Shown in pieces: positions 52,701 through 59,173 of a stretch of 64,000 bases of DNA. Position 1 is the first letter of the stretch, and each line of letters opens with the position of its first letter. The stretch comes from Sandarakinorhabdus glacialis. Lineage in GTDB: Bacteria > Pseudomonadota > Alphaproteobacteria > Sphingomonadales > Sphingomonadaceae. The stretch lies in assembly GCF_014643455.1 (NCBI RefSeq), contig NZ_BMJM01000005.1:62001-126000 (forward strand). The letters run 5' to 3'. The position numbers were made by a program, and so were the translations under genes. The notes beneath the pieces were generated by a model, which did no database searches, was not told the DNA's origin, and worked only from the letters and a program-made list of their open reading frames with translations.

Positions 52701-53294
52701 ATGAGTGATCTTGATCCGCAAACTGTGACCCGTCCGGCCATGCCGGCATTGCTCAAGCTGGCGATCGATTTCGGGCCGTTGCTGGTGTTTTTTGCGGCCA
52801 ACAAATTCGGTGGTGTGTTCACTGCAACCGCGGCGTTCATGGTGGCGGTGCTGGTGGCGATGAGCGTTTCCTGGTGGAAGGTGCGTCACATTCCGGTGAT
52901 GCTGCTGTTTACCGGCGCGGTCGTCCTGGTGTTCGGCGGGCTGACATTGTGGCTGCGGGACGAGACCTTCATCAAGCTCAAGCCGTCGCTGATCTATGCG
53001 ATGTTTGCCGGGATATTGTTGCTGGGGCTGGCGCGGGGGCGGTCCTATCTCAAGCTGGTGCTGGGCGAGGCGCTGCCGCCGATGAGCGATGCCGGCTGGA
53101 CGAAATTGACGCGGAACTGGGCGTTGTTCTTCCTGGTGTTGCTGGCGGCGAACGAGGTGGCGCGGCAGATTCTGACGACTGACCAATGGGTGAATTTCAA
53201 GGTCTGGGGCGTGACGGGGGCGACGTTCGTGTTCGCGATGCTGCAGGCACCGTTGCTGCAGCGCTATGGGGTCAAGCCTGAGGCCGAAGGCTGA
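52701..53294 (+). CDS. yciB: Inner-membrane septation protein A (YciB)
   Basis: This 197-residue integral membrane protein has five to six helices. The family pattern is LKLAIDFGPLLVFFAANKFG at the start, KPSLIYAMFAG in the middle and W..LTRNWALFFLVLLAANEV near the end. It is linked to cell-envelope integrity and septation. ATG 52701 has a GGGGGG site; the longer in-frame start at 52590 runs through a repeat. Its last 23 bases overlap the end of the converging pspF gene. Confidence 0.93.
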   Translation: MSDLDPQTVTRPAMPALLKLAIDFGPLLVFFAANKFGGVFTATAAFMVAVLVAMSVSWWKVRHIPVMLLFTGAVVLVFGGLTLWLRDETFIKLKPSLIYAMFAGILLLGLARGRSYLKLVLGEALPPMSDAGWTKLTRNWALFFLVLLAANEVARQILTTDQWVNFKVWGVTGATFVFAMLQAPLLQRYGVKPEAEG

Positions 53295-54342
53295 CACTGG
53301 ACGCCTCGGTCTGACCCTGATCGAGCATGTTGTGGCGCTTGAGGGCATGGCGGAGCTGGTCATAGCTGAGCGCCAGCGCGGCGGCGGTGCGGCGTTGATT
53401 GTGGCGACAGCGTTCGAGCGCGCCGAGCAGGATTTCGCGTTCATGGGCGAGCACAGCGGCGCGGAAGTCGCTGCAGTCGGGTAGCGGAGCGGGGGCTGAG
53501 CGCGCGATTTCGGTAGTGGCGGGCGCGGCGCTGATGGCGCGTTGGCCGCCGGGTAGCGGGACCGGGCGCCATGGCGATTCGAACGGGTCGAGGATGATGC
53601 GGCCGATGGGGCTGTCGGGATCGCCCCAGCGATAGAGCGAGCGTTCGACGACGTTTTTCAACTCGCGGACATTGCCGGGCCAAGCGTAGTGATCGAGCGT
53701 GGTTTGCGCGGCGGCGGTGAAGCCGGGGAAGCGCGACCAGCCGAGCTCGGCGGCCATGCGGCGGGCGAAGTGCGAGGATAAAGCCTCGATGTCCTCGGCG
53801 CGTTCGCGAAGTGGCGGCAGGGTGACGACCTCGAAAGACAGGCGATCGAGGAGATCGGCGCGGAAACGCCCGCGTTCGACGAGGGTGGGGAGATCCTCGT
53901 TGGTGGCGCCGACGAGGCGGACGTCGACATGGATGGCGCGGTTCGAGCCGATGCGGGTGAGCTCGCCATATTCGACGACGCGGAGCAGGCGTTCCTGCGC
54001 GGCGGGGGCGAGGGTGGCGATCTCGTCGAGGAAGAGCGTGCCGCCGTCGGCGTCCTCGAACCGGCCGGCGCGGGCCCGCTGGGCGCCGGTGAAGGCGCCG
54101 GCTTCATAGCCGAAGAGTTCGGCGTCGATGAGGTTTTCGGGGAGCGCGGCGCAGTTGAGTGAAACCAGCGGCCCGCCCCAGCGCGACGACAGGCGGTGGA
54201 GGCGCTCGGCGATCAACTCCTTGCCGGTGCCGCGCTCGCCGATGATCAGTACCGGACGGTTGAGCGGCGCCGCGGCGGAGGCGCGCTCGACGGCATCGAG
54301 AAAGATCGAGGATGAGCCGATAAGGGCGGCAGGCTTTTGCAT
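53272..54342 (-). CDS. pspF: PspF-type sigma-54 activator
   Basis: This 356-residue bacterial enhancer-binding protein lacks a receiver domain, as PspF does. The AAA+ domain has Walker A GERGTGKE (35-42), the sigma-54 contact loop GAFTGA (82-87) and Walker B GGTLFLDEIA. A C-terminal Fis-type HTH follows (QRRTAAALALSYDQLRHAL). It is divergent from the psp operon, whose sigma-54 promoter it should activate. PspA normally binds and inhibits it until envelope stress. Its 3' end overlaps yciB by 23 bases. Confidence 0.95.
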   Translation of the reverse strand: MQKPAALIGSSSIFLDAVERASAAAPLNRPVLIIGERGTGKELIAERLHRLSSRWGGPLVSLNCAALPENLIDAELFGYEAGAFTGAQRARAGRFEDADGGTLFLDEIATLAPAAQERLLRVVEYGELTRIGSNRAIHVDVRLVGATNEDLPTLVERGRFRADLLDRLSFEVVTLPPLRERAEDIEALSSHFARRMAAELGWSRFPGFTAAAQTTLDHYAWPGNVRELKNVVERSLYRWGDPDSPIGRIILDPFESPWRPVPLPGGQRAISAAPATTEIARSAPAPLPDCSDFRAAVLAHEREILLGALERCRHNQRRTAAALALSYDQLRHALKRHNMLDQGQTEASSVSLRPQA

Positions 54343-54355
54343 GACCGCATGTTAG

Positions 54356-54367
54356 TGGGATTTCCCA
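54356..54367. promoter_or_regulatory. Inverted repeat, candidate PspF enhancer site
   Basis: TGGGA-TT-TCCCA lies 14 bases upstream of the pspF start and about 93 bases upstream of the -24 element of the psp promoter. That is the distance expected for a sigma-54 activator site. The surrounding 54356-54415 is AT-rich and could bend. Confidence 0.45.
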
Positions 54368-54451
54368 AATTTCAGCAATAGATCATACGGAATAAATACC
54401 AAGCCTCTATTTGATGGCCATGATTCCAGTGACTTACGAAACCCGGGGCAC

Positions 54452-54468
54452 TTGGCACGGGACCTGCA
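54452..54468 (+). promoter_or_regulatory. Sigma-54 promoter of the psp operon
   Basis: TTGGCAC-GGGACC-TGCA fits the -24/-12 consensus TGGCAC-N5-TTGCA, with GG at 54454-54455 and GC at 54466-54467 exactly ten bases apart. Transcription should start near 54478. It lies upstream of the small-peptide gene at 54525 and in front of all psp genes. Confidence 0.92.
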
Positions 54469-54524
54469 AAGGATCCTGCATGAGCACCGGCGACGCGCCG
54501 GTCACGCCAGACAGGAGATGTACG

Positions 54525-54692
54525 ATGAGCAATTTTTTCAACAACAGCGACACCATGCGCAGCCTGGTCGGCATTTTTGCAGCCGTCGTCATGGGCGGGA
54601 CCTTCATCGTTGCGGCGGCTGGACCGGCGTTTGCGGCCGATACCGGTTCGCAGGTGAAAGTTTCCGCTGAATCGAATATCGTCCGTGGCTAA
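54525..54692 (+). CDS. Small exported or membrane peptide, first gene of the psp operon
   Basis: This 55-residue protein has a hydrophobic stretch SLVGIFAAVVMGGTFIVAAA ending in AGPAFAADTGS, a good signal-peptidase site. About 18 residues would remain after cleavage (TGSQVKVSAESNIVRG). ATG 54525 has AGGAGA nine bases upstream. It is the first product of the sigma-54-driven operon. Function unknown: a periplasmic signal peptide or stress sensor are options. If uncleaved, it would be a single-pass membrane peptide. Confidence 0.75.
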   Translation: MSNFFNNSDTMRSLVGIFAAVVMGGTFIVAAAGPAFAADTGSQVKVSAESNIVRG

Positions 54693-54807
54693 TAACCTTG
54701 TGACGATCGCCGGAGGGTCGAGGGCCAGGATACAATCTCTGCCCCACCCCTCGCCCTCCGGCACCCTCGATACGAACCGGCTGATTTCGAACTGGAGCAT
54801 CAATACC

Positions 54808-55482
54808 ATGGGTATCTTTTCTCGGACCCGCGATATCATCGCTGCCAATGTGACCGACCTTCTCGATCGCGCCGAAGATCCGGCGAAGATGATCCGCATG
54901 ATCATCATGGAGATGGAGGAAACGCTGGTCGAAGTCCGGGCATCGGCGGCGCGCACGATCGCCGACCAGAAGGAAATGCGCCGCGCCATCATCCGCGCCG
55001 AGGCTGCGCAGTCGAGCTGGGCCGAAAAGGCCGAGCTGGCGCTGAGCAAGGGCCGCGAGGACCTGGCCAAGGCGGCGCTGGTCGAGAAGGGCAAGGCGAA
55101 GAGTTTTGCCGAGCAGATGTCGGGTGAAGTCGCCGCGCTCGACCAGGGCCTGGCGCTCAACGAGGCCGATATCCACAAGCTGGAAGGCAAGCTTCGCGAG
55201 GCACGGACCCGGCAGAACGTCATTCTCAACCGGATCGAAAGCGCGACGCAGCGCTCGCGGATGATCGAGATGACCAAGGGCCCCCGTGTCGACGAGGCGT
55301 TTGCGCGCTTCGAGGTGATGGAGCGCCGCGCCGATCTCGCCGAGGGACGTGCGGATGCGCTGTCGCTGGGCGGGCCGACGCGGACCTTGTCCGACGAGTT
55401 CGCCGACCTGACCGCCGACGACGAAGTTTCGGCCGAGCTGGCGGCGATGAAGGCGCGTTTGTCGCCTAAATCGGAGGGTTGA
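54808..55482 (+). CDS. pspA: Phage shock protein A
   Basis: This 224-residue PspA/IM30 protein is almost entirely coiled coil. It begins with the amphipathic helix MGIFSRTRDIIAANVTDLLD, and DPAKMIRMIIMEMEETLVEV is the typical family stretch. It binds stressed membranes as oligomers and holds PspF inactive when unstressed. ATG 54808 was chosen over upstream in-frame starts because the conserved family start MGIFSR begins here. pspB follows four bases after its stop. Confidence 0.96.
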   Translation: MGIFSRTRDIIAANVTDLLDRAEDPAKMIRMIIMEMEETLVEVRASAARTIADQKEMRRAIIRAEAAQSSWAEKAELALSKGREDLAKAALVEKGKAKSFAEQMSGEVAALDQGLALNEADIHKLEGKLREARTRQNVILNRIESATQRSRMIEMTKGPRVDEAFARFEVMERRADLAEGRADALSLGGPTRTLSDEFADLTADDEVSAELAAMKARLSPKSEG

Positions 55483-55486
55483 GATC

Positions 55487-55750
55487 ATGGAAAACGTCAT
55501 GGTCCCAATCGCCGTCGTCGGGATGCTGTTCATCGGGCTGCCGTGGATGATCCTGCACTATCTGACCCGGTGGAAGTCGGGCCGGGGCATCAGCCAGCAG
55601 GACGAAGCGCTGCTCGACGATCTGCACGAGATGGCGCGGCGGCTCGATAGCCGGCTCGATTCGATCGAACGGATCATCGCTGCCGACGATCCGCAGTGGA
55701 AGGACGGGCGCATTCCCGACCTGTCGACGCAAAAACACCAGCTTCGCTGA
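55487..55750 (+). CDS. pspB: Phage shock protein B
   Basis: This 87-residue protein has one N-terminal membrane helix (VVGMLFIGLPWMILHYLTRW) and a cytoplasmic coiled coil ending in LDSRLDSIERIIAADDPQWK. That matches the E. coli PspB ending around L.SIL.A..P.W. With PspC it senses envelope stress and draws PspA from PspF. A GGAGGGTTGAG site precedes ATG 55487. A palindrome GCTTCGCT-G-AGCGAAGC (55741-55757) spans its stop codon. Confidence 0.93.
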   Translation: MENVMVPIAVVGMLFIGLPWMILHYLTRWKSGRGISQQDEALLDDLHEMARRLDSRLDSIERIIAADDPQWKDGRIPDLSTQKHQLR

Positions 55751-55791
55751 GCGAAGCAGACACAGGCTGCAAAGCAGAAGGATTGACGACG

Positions 55792-55995
55792 ATGTTGACG
55801 ATCAATGGCCCGTTCGGGCTCGACAAGACCAATGGCCGCATCATGGGCGTCTGCTCGGGGATCGCCGATTATACCGGGATCGAAGCGATATGGGTGCGGC
55901 TGGCTTTTGTGGTCGGCACGCTGCTCGGAGCGGGATCGCTGTTGCTGGTCTATCTCGCAATCGGGCTCATCGCCGACCGCAAACGCGTCCTCTAG
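55792..55995 (+). CDS. pspC: Phage shock protein C, short form
   Basis: This 67-residue protein consists of the PspC core only: LDKTNGRIMGVCSGIADYTG followed by one long hydrophobic region (RLAFVVGTLLGAGSLLLVYLAIGL). It lacks the cytoplasmic tail of E. coli PspC. ATG 55792 fits; an in-frame start at 55696 lies inside pspB. It is followed by a longer paralogue, so the two may form a mixed sensor. Confidence 0.92.
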   Translation: MLTINGPFGLDKTNGRIMGVCSGIADYTGIEAIWVRLAFVVGTLLGAGSLLLVYLAIGLIADRKRVL

Positions 55996-56022
55996 CCCGC
56001 ATCGCAAAAGGGGAGATCTGAG

Positions 56023-56403
56023 ATGAGCGTTCGCCGCACCCGCTTTTACCTCGACAAGCGCAACAAGCGTCTGATGGGGGTTTGTTCGGGCATTGCCGAT
56101 TATTTCGGCTGGGACGCCACCTGGGTTCGCGTCGGTGCCATCGCGCTGACAGTCTTCGGGGTTGGTTTCCTGCCGATCATCTATGTCGCAATGGGCCTGA
56201 TCGCAGATCCCAAGCCCGGCATGCTGTATAACGAGAGCGCCGAGGACCAGCGTTTCTGGAAAAATGTGCGGGTGGCGCCGCAGCGCACGGTGCGCGACGT
56301 CAACGCCTCGTTCCGCGAGTCGGACCGCCGGTTGCGCGATATCGAAGCCTATGTGACGTCTTCCAACAGCCGCCTCGCGAATCAGATCGAAGAGCTGCGC
56401 TGA
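56023..56403 (+). CDS. pspC2: Phage shock protein C, long form with C-terminal tail
   Basis: This 126-residue protein has the PspC core (LDKRNKRLMGVCSGIADYFGW, then a hydrophobic segment). A tail ends in RRLRDIEAYVTSSNSRLANQ then IEEL. That tail matches the end of E. coli PspC (RLREMERYVTS...). Similar endings recur in the six small proteins downstream. AGGGGAGA precedes ATG 56023. The stop codon is part of a 21-bp direct repeat. Confidence 0.93.
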   Translation: MSVRRTRFYLDKRNKRLMGVCSGIADYFGWDATWVRVGAIALTVFGVGFLPIIYVAMGLIADPKPGMLYNESAEDQRFWKNVRVAPQRTVRDVNASFRESDRRLRDIEAYVTSSNSRLANQIEELR

Positions 56404-56433
56404 GGCGCGGGCCAGATCGAAGAGCTGCGCTGA
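56383..56433 (+). repeat. 21-bp direct repeat including the pspC2 stop codon
   Basis: CAGATCGAAGAGCTGCGCTG plus A occurs at 56383-56403, encoding the last residues and stop of pspC2, and again exactly at 56413-56433 in the intergenic gap, with a 30-base period. It is a recent local duplication. Confidence 0.9.
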
Positions 56434-56457
56434 TGCGTTAAATCAAGGGGAACGACA

Positions 56458-56745
56458 ATGGACCTCGGTGGACCGACTTTCGTTCTGCTGATCATCGCGA
56501 TGAGCTTCATCGCCTGGATCATCACCACCGCCATCCGCGCCAGGCATGGCTATCCCGTTTCAAACGAATGGGGCGGCATGGTCGGCAAGGCGGACGACGG
56601 GATGAAGCGCCAGAACGAGATACTCGAGAACGAAAACGCGCTGCTGCGCGGCAAGGTTGGCCGGCTCGAGGAGCGGATGGCGGTGCTGGAACGCATCGCG
56701 ACCGACGCGCCGTCGCGGCTTTCGGCGCAAATCGACAAGCTTTAG
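56458..56745 (+). CDS. Psp-array protein 1: small membrane-anchored coiled coil
   Basis: This 95-residue protein has an N-terminal membrane helix (FVLLIIAMSFIAWIITTAI). Then comes RARHGYPVSNEWGG and a coiled coil ending VLERIATDAPSRLSAQIDKL. The WIITT..R..GYP...WG segment and the tail are both shared with array protein 4, so the two are close paralogues. A GGGG site precedes ATG 56458. Probably a PspB/PspC-like cytoplasm-facing adaptor; function unproven. Confidence 0.85.
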   Translation: MDLGGPTFVLLIIAMSFIAWIITTAIRARHGYPVSNEWGGMVGKADDGMKRQNEILENENALLRGKVGRLEERMAVLERIATDAPSRLSAQIDKL

Positions 56746-56759
56746 GGGGAGATCTTATC

Positions 56760-57059
56760 ATGGACGACAATGTTCGATATTTGATCCCGATATTCGGCAC
56801 GTTGATCCCCATCGTCGCGATCGTCGGCGCCTTTGCCACCGCGATCTTCAAGCGCTGGGCCAATCTGAAGGAAAAGCAGCTTTCGGTGACAGCGCATGCT
56901 TCGGCCGAGCAGGCGGCGCAATATGCCGCCAAGATCGCCACGCTGGAGGAGCGCGTCGCCGTTCTCAATCGCATCGTCACCGATCGCAACGAGGGGCTGA
57001 CGGCGCAGATCGAAGGTTTGCGCGACGCGCCGGCGGTGCCCGGCACCACCCAGAACTGA
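56760..57059 (+). CDS. Psp-array protein 2: small membrane-anchored coiled coil
   Basis: This 99-residue protein has membrane helix LIPIFGTLIPIVAIVGAFAT, then FKRWANLKEKQL and a coiled coil with EQAAQYAAKI. It ends LNRIVTDRNEGLTAQIEGL. Array protein 3 shares nearly all of this, so the pair comes from a local duplication. ATG 56760 follows a GGGGGAGA site. It begins 14 bases after the previous stop. Confidence 0.85.
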   Translation: MDDNVRYLIPIFGTLIPIVAIVGAFATAIFKRWANLKEKQLSVTAHASAEQAAQYAAKIATLEERVAVLNRIVTDRNEGLTAQIEGLRDAPAVPGTTQN

Positions 57060-57069
57060 AGGAATTACC

Positions 57070-57348
57070 ATGTTGCTCGACGCATCCGACCTGTTTCCGT
57101 TCGTCGTGCTGGCGATCGTGCTGGCGGCGATCCTGGGCAGCGTTGCCAAGCGCTGGATGAAGCTGAAGGAAAAGCAGCTCGAACTTGCAGCGACCGTCGC
57201 GGGTGAGCAGGCGGCGCAATATGCCACCAAGATCGAACGGCTCGAAAGCCATGTCGCGACGTTGAACCGCATCGTTACCGACCGCAACGAAGGCTTGGCG
57301 GTGCAGATCGAGACACTGCGTGACGGGCCGGCAACCAAGCTGAACTGA
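57070..57348 (+). CDS. Psp-array protein 3: small membrane-anchored coiled coil
   Basis: This 92-residue paralogue of array protein 2 has membrane helix LFPFVVLAIVLAAILGSVA, then KRWMKLKEKQLELAA and EQAAQYATKIERLESHVATL. It ends NRIVTDRNEGLAVQIETL. A GGAA site precedes ATG 57070; the gap to the previous gene is 10 bases. Same likely role as its neighbours. Confidence 0.85.
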   Translation: MLLDASDLFPFVVLAIVLAAILGSVAKRWMKLKEKQLELAATVAGEQAAQYATKIERLESHVATLNRIVTDRNEGLAVQIETLRDGPATKLN

Positions 57349-57358
57349 GGAATTTGTC

Positions 57359-57682
57359 ATGGCCCTGGACCCGAGTTATTTCCCGGCGGTTGCGCCGATC
57401 ATGGTCAGCGCGGTGCTTATCGGCACGGTTGGCTGGGTGGTTACGACCTGGCTGCGGATCAAGAACGGTTATCCACTCGAGAGCAGTTGGGGCAAGCCAC
57501 TGCTGCCGGCCGTCAGCAGCGAGGCGATGGAGCGGGTCAAATTGCTGACCCAGGAGAATGCCCGGCTGAGCGCCGAGATCGGCAGCGTCAAGGACCGGCT
57601 GCAGGTGCTCGAACGCATCGCCACCGATCCGGCCAAGCGGCTTTCGGCCGAGATCGACGACTTGGGCAAGGCACTGAATTAA
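57359..57682 (+). CDS. Psp-array protein 4: small membrane-anchored coiled coil
   Basis: This 107-residue protein has membrane helix IMVSAVLIGTVGWVVTTWLR, then IKNGYPLESSWGK and a coiled coil ending RLQVLERIATDPAKRLSAEI followed by DDL. It is the closest match to array protein 1, although proteins 2 and 3 lie between them. The tail aligns without gaps with that of the long PspC. AGGA precedes ATG 57359. Confidence 0.85.
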   Translation: MALDPSYFPAVAPIMVSAVLIGTVGWVVTTWLRIKNGYPLESSWGKPLLPAVSSEAMERVKLLTQENARLSAEIGSVKDRLQVLERIATDPAKRLSAEIDDLGKALN

Positions 57683-57719
57683 GCCGTTTGCCTGCAACCC
57701 CTTACCTGCGAGAGACCCG

Positions 57720-57977
57720 ATGAACCCGTTTGAAATGGTCGTCCTGATCATCCTGATCGTAACTATCGGCCGGGTGCTGGGCGGGCGATTTGGCAAGCGG
57801 GGCGGACGTGCGCAGGCCCTGTTCGATACCGGCGGCGACGGTGTGAGCGTTGCCGAAGCGGCGCGGTTGAAGGCCGAGGTGACGCGTTTGAACGAGCGCA
57901 TCCAGGTGCTCGAGCGACTGGCGACCGACCCGGCCAAGCGGCTGTCGGACGAGATCGAATCCTTGAAGAACAAATAA
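57720..57977 (+). CDS. Psp-array protein 5: small membrane-anchored coiled coil
   Basis: This 85-residue protein has membrane helix MVVLIILIVTIGRVLGG, a basic GRFGKRGGRAQ segment and a coiled coil ending RIQVLERLATDPAKRLSDEI then ESL. The tail is nearly identical to that of array protein 4, but the N-terminal half differs. A 37-bp gap precedes it, the largest within the array. The ribosome-binding site is weak (AGAGA). Confidence 0.83.
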   Translation: MNPFEMVVLIILIVTIGRVLGGRFGKRGGRAQALFDTGGDGVSVAEAARLKAEVTRLNERIQVLERLATDPAKRLSDEIESLKNK

Positions 57978-58001
57978 CGCTCGGAATTGGGAGGACTGAA
58001 C

Positions 58002-58244
58002 ATGCCACCGTTGGAATCTCTCATGGTCATCAGCACCGCCGGCCTGATGGGGCTGGGCCTGATCGGCGGCTTTGCGACCTGGGCCTGGGGCGGCTGGTTG
58101 CGATTGCGGGCGCGCGAGATCGAGCAGCATGGCGGCTATTCGGGCGTCAGTGATTTGCCGGCGATCGGGCAGCGGATCGATCTTGCCGACCTGAAGGAGC
58201 GGATTCGCAAACTGGAGGCGATTGCCTCGGGCGTCGATTTTTGA
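58002..58244 (+). CDS. Psp-array protein 6: small membrane-anchored coiled coil
   Basis: This 80-residue protein has membrane helix VISTAGLMGLGLIGGFATWA, then WGGWLRLRAREIEQHGGY. A short coiled coil ends DLKERIRKLEAIASGVDF. The LKERI..LE.IA pattern matches the start of the shared tail, which then stops early, so this is a truncated or divergent member. A GGGAGGA site precedes ATG 58002. It is the last array gene, 39 bases before sufE. Confidence 0.8.
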   Translation: MPPLESLMVISTAGLMGLGLIGGFATWAWGGWLRLRAREIEQHGGYSGVSDLPAIGQRIDLADLKERIRKLEAIASGVDF

Positions 58245-58283
58245 CGGGTTGACCCTGCGGGCGGTGCGCCGCAAACGGGCGCG

Positions 58284-58694
58284 ATGAGCATCGCGACTTT
58301 TGACGATGTCGAGGCCGAATTCGAAGCGCTCGACGATTGGGACGACCGGTACCGGTTGTTGATCGACCTGGGGCGCGGATTGCCCGAGATGCCGGCGGCG
58401 CTGAAGACCGAGGCGTCGCGGGTGCGCGGATGTGCGAGCCAGGTGTGGCTGCACCCCAGCCTTGCCGGCGGACGCTTGCATTTTGCCGCCGACAGCGACG
58501 CGGCGATCGTCAAGGGGCTGGTCGCGCTGGTGCTCATGCTGGCCGATGGGCGGGCGCCGGCGGCGATCGATACCGGCGAAATCCGGACGCGGCTCGAGGG
58601 GTTGGGCCTGTCGAAGCATTTGTCGTCGAACCGCACGCAGGGGCTGGCTTCGATGGTGGCGCGGATCGGCGAACTGGCGCGGGTCTCGACATGA
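58284..58694 (+). CDS. sufE: SufE-family sulphur acceptor
   Basis: This 136-residue protein takes persulphide sulphur from a SufS-type cysteine desulphurase for Fe-S assembly. The active Cys50 lies in RVRGCASQVWL, and DDRYRLLIDLGRGLPEMP is a family start. No other suf gene is nearby. ATG 58284 fits the family; the stop overlaps the thioesterase start as ATGA. Confidence 0.93.
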   Translation: MSIATFDDVEAEFEALDDWDDRYRLLIDLGRGLPEMPAALKTEASRVRGCASQVWLHPSLAGGRLHFAADSDAAIVKGLVALVLMLADGRAPAAIDTGEIRTRLEGLGLSKHLSSNRTQGLASMVARIGELARVST

Positions 58695-59173
58695 GCGATC
58701 TGCCGCCCAGCGACTTGCCGAGGCCCGTGCTCGACCTGGCGGCGCGGCAGCGGCGGTTCGTGCAGCGCTTCCTCGACGGGGTGCCGCATCTCAATTTGCT
58801 CGGCATTACGTTCGACAGCTATGGTCCGGACTGGGCCCAGTTGCAGATGCCTTACGCACCGCAACAGGTTGCCGACCCGGACTATGGCATCATCGCGTCG
58901 GGAGCGATCTTCACCCTGATGGACTCGGCGGCGGGTTTTTCGATCAACCTGGCACTCGGAGAGTTCCTGCCGATTGCGACGATCGACCTGCGGATGGACT
59001 ATTTACGCGCGCCGGCGCTGCGGGCGACGGTCTCGGGCCGGGCAACATGCTATCGGCTGACCCGGCAGATCGCCTTTGTGCGCGGCATTGCCCATGACGG
59101 CGATCCGGCCGACCCAATCGCCAACATGGCCGGGACGTTCATGCTCAACCGCCCCGAAAAGGCCGTCGCATGA
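58691..59173 (+). CDS. PaaI-family hotdog thioesterase, first copy
   Basis: This 160-residue hotdog-fold protein has G..ASGAIFTLMDSAAGFSI, with the Asp on the long helix, and ATIDLRMDYLRAP, as in PaaI thioesterases that hydrolyse acyl-CoA esters. It is coupled by ATGA to sufE upstream and to a second thioesterase downstream. Substrate unknown. Confidence 0.88.
   Translation: MSDLPPSDLPRPVLDLAARQRRFVQRFLDGVPHLNLLGITFDSYGPDWAQLQMPYAPQQVADPDYGIIASGAIFTLMDSAAGFSINLALGEFLPIATIDLRMDYLRAPALRATVSGRATCYRLTRQIAFVRGIAHDGDPADPIANMAGTFMLNRPEKAVA

Follow-up and report, generated by a model that had tools for sequence, protein, structure and literature searches.

The closest described counterparts of the genes reported here are fragments of PspC. 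According to the parts of an Escherichia coli study that deal with these fragments (PMC3068692), PspC40-119 (membrane span and tail) binds PspA and PspB, the tail alone (PspC69-119) binds PspA if PspB is present, and both induce psp expression when made with PspB. The same parts describe the PspC leucine zipper as required for PspA contact and for induction. In Yersinia, the C-terminal cytoplasmic domain of PspC is reported to bind PspA in the on state, freeing PspF (passages of PMC5596341). Here, we describe a psp operon of Sandarakinorhabdus glacialis, located in a 64,000-nucleotide stretch of contig NZ_BMJM01000005.1 (positions 62,001 to 126,000; hereafter the window), in which pspA, pspB and two pspC genes are followed by an array of six small genes, s1 to s6. 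As judged from sequence comparison, the products of s1–s5 appear to join a single membrane anchor of the PspB kind to a tail like that at the C-terminus of PspC; the PspC N-terminal domain is missing. This array is widespread in Sphingomonadaceae, and we regard it as a novel form of the Psp system.

Related arrangements are mentioned only briefly elsewhere. The survey by Ravi and colleagues (PMC11237479) notes, in one clause with accession AOL22920.1, that PspB is duplicated in some operons, and also describes fusions of PspC with a divergent PspB, which give PspC a PspB-like end. The relevant passages of this survey mention neither sphingomonads (the main text contains 'sphingo' 0 times) nor subtypes, copy numbers or a tail-only form, and those of a second survey, by Popp and colleagues (PMC9239133), mention no such arrays. 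A Novosphingobium genomics paper names PspC only, in a prophage table. We found no literature account of the array, its subtypes or the tail-only form in a search whose coverage mostly excluded subscription journals.

Six small genes follow pspC in the window

All genes of the operon lie on the plus strand and were called with a purpose-built rule for open reading frames (ORFs) and start sites; small-gene types were assigned as the best of six seeds. The canonical part consists of pspA (224 amino acids (aa); 54808..55482; PF04012, E 7.9e-36), pspB (87 aa; 55487..55750; PF06667, E 9.4e-25; TIGR02976, 80.6 bits against a cut-off of 51.7) and the two pspC genes. pspC1 (67 aa; 55792..55995; PF04024, E 2.1e-15) encodes the PspC domain without the C-terminal tail, and its match to TIGR02978 covers only positions 7–61 of 121, below the cut-off. 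pspC2 (126 aa; 56023..56403) is full length including the tail (TIGR02978, 122.7 bits against a cut-off of 104). In the array, s1 (95 aa; 56458..56745) and s4 (107 aa; 57359..57682) encode type A proteins, with an anchor and a predicted PspC-type tail. Genes s2 (99 aa; 56760..57059) and s3 (92 aa; 57070..57348) encode type B proteins, characterised by KEKQL...EQAAQYA and 57–58% identical to each other. The s5 product (85 aa; 57720..57977) is of the MNPFEMV type, which has relatives outside the family too, and s6 (80 aa from an ATG; 58002..58244), whose product is without a second tail helix, ends the array; an alternative TTG start at 57987 would give it 85 aa. Gaps from s1 through to s6 are 14, 10, 10, 37 and 24 bases.

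By hydropathy, each of the six proteins has a single strongly hydrophobic 19-residue stretch near its N-terminus and no second one. Lysine and arginine number 0–1 on the N-terminal side of this span and 2–5 within the 15 residues on its C-terminal side, and since the positive charges follow the span, the tails are predicted to be cytoplasmic, as in PspB. All six are therefore predicted to have the PspB-type topology of one N-terminal span and a cytoplasmic C-terminal tail.

A preliminary description of this DNA had reported six consecutive genes of 80–107 residues with gaps of 10–37 bases after pspA, pspB and two pspC genes, each encoding one N-terminal membrane helix, and had placed them in a psp operon with pspF and a sigma-54 promoter; these points were correct. 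All the sequence motifs that it quoted are present, but s2 and s3 extend 19 and 16 residues beyond NRIVTDRNEGL. Its starting coordinate for the psp genes, 54525, is that of a 55-residue signal-peptide-like ORF, and pspA begins at 54808. It had also assigned a coiled coil to every protein. In a crude comparison of 3.5-residue periodicity with shuffled sequences, this was supported for s5 (p 0.015) and borderline for s3 (0.055), but not supported for s4 (0.10), s1 and s2 (0.21 each) or s6 (0.735).

The tails of s1–s5 resemble the PspC tail

Profile-profile comparison linked type A to type B (E 2e-21) and to s5 (1.9e-22), so s1–s5 are one family. The same method linked PspC to type A (7.6e-9), s5 (1.5e-7) and type B (2e-5), and PspB to type B (1.1e-5). 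With smaller alignments, type A matched PspC at 3.3e-7 and type B matched PspB at 2.4e-7 over 67 columns, and s6 gave nothing with PspB. PspB and PspC themselves were linked at only 6.9e-4. Reversed-profile decoys scored no better than 4.5e-3. FtsB, a real one-span coiled-coil family used as a control, reached 5.7e-4 with type A, 2.1e-3 with type B, 1.3e-3 with s5 and 0.02 with s6. Over this background, the PspC links stand out by four to five orders of magnitude for type A and s5, and by two for type B. The s6 profile matched s5 (5.4e-7) and type B (2.3e-6).

The motif in common with the PspC end consists, in order, of R-L/V, E, either T-D or T-S, and L-x-x-E/Q-I-x-x-L. A PspC-type tail was recognised in type A and s5, more weakly in type B, and not in s6. 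The preliminary term PspB/PspC-tail-like is thus upheld by profile comparison for s1–s5 and not for s6, which matches neither the PspC tail nor PspB directly. AlphaFold2 models, which were single-chain and of low confidence and were used for secondary structure only, place helices at 5-36, 54-89 and 91-106 in s4 (predicted local distance difference test score (pLDDT) 78, predicted template modelling score (pTM) 0.35) and tail helices at 86-114 and 116-125 in PspC2 (pLDDT 65, pTM 0.30). Both ends are therefore drawn as a helix, a break and a short helix.

Like PspB, the array proteins are predicted to cross the membrane once, near the N-terminus, and to have a short helical tail in the cytoplasm; they are also encoded in the same operon. 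They differ in that s1–s5 run into a second tail helix where PspB ends, around A-D-N-P-x-W, whereas s6 ends there without that motif. Furthermore, no member tested exceeded the curated PspB cut-off: the best TIGR02976 score among s1–s6 was 15.3 bits (s3) against 51.7, no PF06667 hit was listed, and the best relative tested, of type B, reached 31.4 bits (E 1.7e-7). In comparison with the PspC tail and the E. coli fragments PspC40-119 and PspC69-119, s1–s5 are alike in having a helix, a T-D/S break and a short helix ending in L..EI..L. They differ in lacking the PspC N-terminal domain (PF04024 matched none of s1–s6) and in being natural separate genes, up to eight per locus, rather than a laboratory fragment. 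Sub-threshold matches to PspB and PspC models recur among relatives, and three single s5-like proteins from other families of the order match approximately positions 36–116 of the 119-residue PspC model NF007973 (E 0.0016–0.0098, below the cut-off).

Other identities were rejected. Chance ORFs were ruled out by the conservation and the purifying selection described below (108/110 primary loci; ratios of non-synonymous to synonymous substitution (dN/dS) of 0.21–0.43), and a known Pfam or NCBIfam family by the lack of any match above cut-off. Phage or defence genes were rejected, as PADLOC gave no hit for s1–s6, PspB or PspA, and PHROGs nothing better than E 0.0067. One plasmid match was obtained, to an 880-kb Sphingomonas plasmid record annotated 'hypothetical protein'. 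Among solved structures in the PDB, PspC2 had no match at E up to 1, the PspB profile reached 0.19 at best, and the type A profile matched generic coiled coils only (best 0.022).

The array is conserved beside pspA across Sphingomonadaceae

An array model built from s4, s1 and s5 matched 107 of 119 genomes of the family, and PspA matched 112. The seven genomes without a PspA match all lack an array-model match, a nesting with a chance of 1.4e-8 if shared ancestry is ignored. Five genomes have PspA and no array-model match; in one of the five, G092, the locus is truncated where the contig ends. We fetched 114 stretches, of which 113, in addition to the window, contained PspA. Four loci were set aside, one cut by a contig end and three that are second psp loci, leaving 110 primary loci. 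The preliminary description had named conservation beside pspA in relatives as the test on which the array could fall, and 108 of these 110 loci hold at least one related gene. Small genes number 0 in 2 loci, 1 in 4, 2 in 8, 3 in 17, 4 in 33, 5 in 29, 6 in 10, 7 in 6 and 8, the maximum, in 1; these counts are lower bounds in seven loci with an uncalled ORF in a gap. At least two are present in 104/110 and at least three in 96/110, together with s6 in 97, PspB in 109 and PspC in all 110.

Across the primary loci, the genes follow the order A-A-B-s5-s6, or one near it, in the same operon. The gaps (n = 458) have a median of 24 bases and are at most 60 bases in 417 cases; 123 are overlaps of -1 or -4, which suggests translational coupling. 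A second set, partly overlapping the first, comprised the best 80 of 580 relatives from a species-genome scan. PspA was in view in 77 of these 80, and 39, many of them Sphingopyxis, have the common order PspA-PspB-PspC-A-A-B-s5-s6.

A short tail-less PspC lies beside a full PspC in 5/110 primary loci, the window counted, and two PspC genes are present in 17 of the best 80 of 580; a short PspC also occurs in three loci of another family (L162, L285 and L286). Given these genes and the tail-only array genes, the PspC head and tail both occur as separate genes. In two 2.1-Mb genomes of one genus (L123 in G104 and L139 in G020), pspF-pspA-pspB-pspC is kept and the models find 0 and 1 small genes, respectively. 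In the second psp loci (L083 in G049, L145 in G073 and L146 in G070), the models find neither pspB nor an adjacent pspF. Two of these loci contain pspA-pspC-s6 and one pspA-pspC, so s6 can travel with pspA-pspC alone; of the three, L145 and L146 still have a strong sigma-54 site. Amid matches from sphingomonad records, one record titled Arthrobacter sp. TPD3018 (L263) contains the array gene with 60% identity; probably either the name is wrong or the contig is a contaminant.

The array lies downstream of a PspF/sigma-54 promoter

Divergent to pspA, the minus-strand gene pspF (53272..54342) encodes a 356-aa sigma-54 enhancer-binding activator. A pattern match to a sigma-54 -24/-12 site, TGGCACGGGACCTGC, lies between the two at 54453..54467 on the plus strand. 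The bare pattern is not rare, with 3 matches in the window against 0.82 expected. A strong site (at least 9 of 10 specified bases) was found 5′ of pspA in 97/114 loci, a count without its own shuffle control; with a shorter region and a looser threshold, sites were found in 70/114 loci, compared with 7.6% of shuffles. A pspF-like ORF is divergent in 110/114 loci, the window counted. Within the window's array there is no strict sigma-54 match, and the four terminator-like hits in 54300–58700 are all on the minus strand. Hence, the sigma-54 site precedes the first gene of a unit with no internal plus-strand terminator, and the array genes lie in the pspF/pspA operon directly after pspC. From this layout, the array proteins would be expected to be co-produced with PspA when the response fires.

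The first gene 3′ of the promoter is the 55-aa signal-peptide-like ORF (54525..54692, plus strand), which has no Pfam hit. Relatives occupy the same place in 48/114 loci (reverse-strand control, 0). Among 14 relatives listed, five are longer (L063, L061, L051, L044 and L053), and all three of those tested have a TonB C-terminal domain above the Pfam cut-off. The ORF in the window looks like a signal peptide that remains without its TonB domain.

Array subtypes probably arose early and are under purifying selection

A tree of 452 small proteins (FastTree local supports, short proteins, midpoint rooting) resolved five clades: s1 (49 sequences, support 0.81), s4 (75, 0.82), s2/s3 (111 sequences from 86 loci, 0.91), s5 (94 from 91 loci, 0.96) and s6 (99, one per locus, 0.99). 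The subtypes of the preliminary description, which counted at least two, are real but are better read as these five orthologous groups. As the clades span many loci, at least five array members were, on the gene tree alone, probably present early in Sphingomonadaceae. The window's s2 and s3 belong to the same 20-sequence subclade (support 0.86), suggesting that s3 is a later duplicate of s2, doubled in the lineage of the window.

Outside the family, s5-like genes are present in 24 of 33 genomes from the same order, one or two in each. In one such family (f8; L162, L285 and L286), an s5-like gene ends a psp operon after pspA, pspB, pspC and a short pspC. This operon is like that of the window in having pspF, a sigma-54 site, pspA, pspB, pspC and a short pspC; it differs in having one small gene (best match, the s5 model) in place of the array, and our models find no further small gene and no s6. 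The simplest reading is that a single s5-like gene in an older psp operon was multiplied in Sphingomonadaceae. More widely, s5-like genes were found in 10/289 genomes of the class, five of them from the window's family, and in 49/348 of the phylum, which included another class (probably Gammaproteobacteria) with one or two each. By comparison, s6 matched 3/192 genomes of a class-wide sample that may hold few members of the order, all three from the window's family. The wider s5-like family (L156–L163 and L271–L290) consists of membrane proteins of approximately 70–90 aa; most genomes have one or two, generally at a distance from psp genes, and two adjacent copies occur in L271 and L272. Among 25 loci with such orphan genes, any given neighbour family recurred in 5 at most.

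Selection was estimated in the 39 loci of identical order. Median dN/dS was 0.094 for PspB and 0.095 for PspC; among the array genes it was 0.235 and 0.236 (the two of type A), 0.43 (type B), 0.334 (s5) and 0.206 (s6). For these genes, pairs with dS of 0.1–1.2 were kept (620–680 of 741; pairs are not independent). The PspA value (0.218) came from an untrimmed start, is probably inflated and was not used. All array types are therefore under purifying selection, looser than that on PspB and PspC.

Proposed role of the array and alternative explanations

We propose, with a rough probability of 0.45, that s1–s5 are PspF-induced docking subunits for PspA, i.e. adaptors derived from PspB and PspC that reinforce the psp response. 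The likeness of their architecture to PspC40-119, together with the PspF-type promoter, makes inducible PspA docking with positive feedback the economical reading. From the architecture, conservation and promoter sequence established above, we infer binding, direction of effect and expression as follows. The tails of s1–s5 would serve as PspA-binding sites at the membrane, and the anchors of these proteins would pair with PspB or PspC. A burst of adaptors would then offer many docking sites, helping PspA to assemble at the damaged membrane. PspA held by the adaptors would stay off PspF, and induction would be reinforced. Each subtype has a conserved span and juxtamembrane motif of its own, and the subtypes may provide different partners or lipid contacts; s6 might act as a capping or PspB-like subunit. 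The preliminary description had suggested that an array of such adaptors might broaden the stress inputs or adjust PspA/PspF release.

Several observations weigh against this proposal. No Pfam or NCBIfam model matched s1–s6 or the tested relatives above its cut-off, the PspB links rise only one to two orders of magnitude over the FtsB background, and profile-profile comparison found no direct link from s6 to PspB (0.013) or PspC (0.14). The confident PspC alignment comprises only the final 35–37 columns, and it reaches over the membrane span (86 columns) only in a run without realignment, such that homology to PspC is established by alignment for the tail and not for the span. Coiled-coil periodicity fails in four of the six proteins (s1, s2, s4 and s6). 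The E. coli PspC tail is treated as possibly periplasmic, two topologies being discussed in the relevant part of PMC3068692. Looser sigma-54-like sites (at least 8 of 10 bases) occur in 37/114 regions downstream of pspA, and one sigma-70-like match was found within the array (56732–56761), although 0.9 would be expected by chance. Finally, in all 14 genomes tested from one other family of the order (f5), the s5-like gene is away from pspB or on another contig, and in the genomes of other classes that we looked at, s5-like genes are away from psp genes.

The opposite direction of effect has to be considered. As PspB-like silencers, the array proteins would associate in the off state with PspA or with the PspC tail; the response would be weakened or shut down by negative feedback, in place of PspA being held in the on state. 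Their PspB-like anchor and topology, and the TIGR02976 match of the type B relative (1.7e-7, 31.4 bits, below the 51.7 cut-off), fit this idea, and one cited title reports that contacts between the cytoplasmic domains of PspB and PspC silence the Yersinia response. However, s1–s5 have the second tail helix that is found in PspC and not in PspB, type A and s5 are nearer to PspC than to PspB, and the comparable E. coli PspC fragment induces in the experiments described in PMC3068692; we consider silencing unlikely, though still a serious contender. A similarly doubtful but credible alternative is that the array proteins act purely as effectors, being small proteins that stabilise the membrane, are co-induced by PspF and have no role in PspA/PspF signalling. 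The E. coli psp genes include the accessories PspD and PspG. The faster evolution of the array genes (dN/dS 0.21–0.43 against 0.094 for PspB and 0.095 for PspC), their copy number of 0 to 8 and the occurrence of s5 relatives away from psp genes would also suit effectors, whereas the tail in common with PspC and the stable position directly after pspC would not.

Two further explanations have little weight. The likeness to the PspC and PspB tails might be a generic coiled-coil resemblance, the array being unrelated membrane coiled-coil proteins that share the promoter. No curated model is exceeded, the FtsB control reaches 5.7e-4 with type A, PspB and PspC are themselves linked at only 6.9e-4, and the PDB matches of type A are generic coiled coils. 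Nevertheless, the type A–PspC match is nearly five orders of magnitude better than type A–FtsB and reaches both C-termini, the T-D/S break and L..EI..L end coincide, and relatives repeatedly match PspB and PspC models below threshold, making a purely generic likeness very improbable. Variable copy number and the lineage-specific s2/s3 duplication could also indicate that the array consists of neutral, barely functional copies of psp genes. This idea is already disfavoured and hardly credible given orthologous clades across many loci, the gene order common to 39 loci among the best 80 of 580, and purifying selection on all types.

Implications

The docking proposal has a bolder and rather unlikely extension. 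In this form, sphingomonads would have separated the two parts of PspC, the sensing head and the tail that binds PspA, and amplified the latter into co-induced adaptors with different spans. Mixed oligomers of these adaptors might add combinatorial docking to the response and latch it by positive feedback, the adaptors, once induced, holding PspA at the membrane and off PspF. In the sources cited here, as far as their relevant parts go, the passing of a signal from PspC to PspA is known from enterobacterial fragments and mutants. Recognition of the array also names genes that lack annotation, several per genome across a large group (one species-genome scan gave 580 matching stretches). Natural tail-only PspC-like genes in an ordered array would offer a clean route to the function of the tail, to whether the response latches, and to the reason for several versions.

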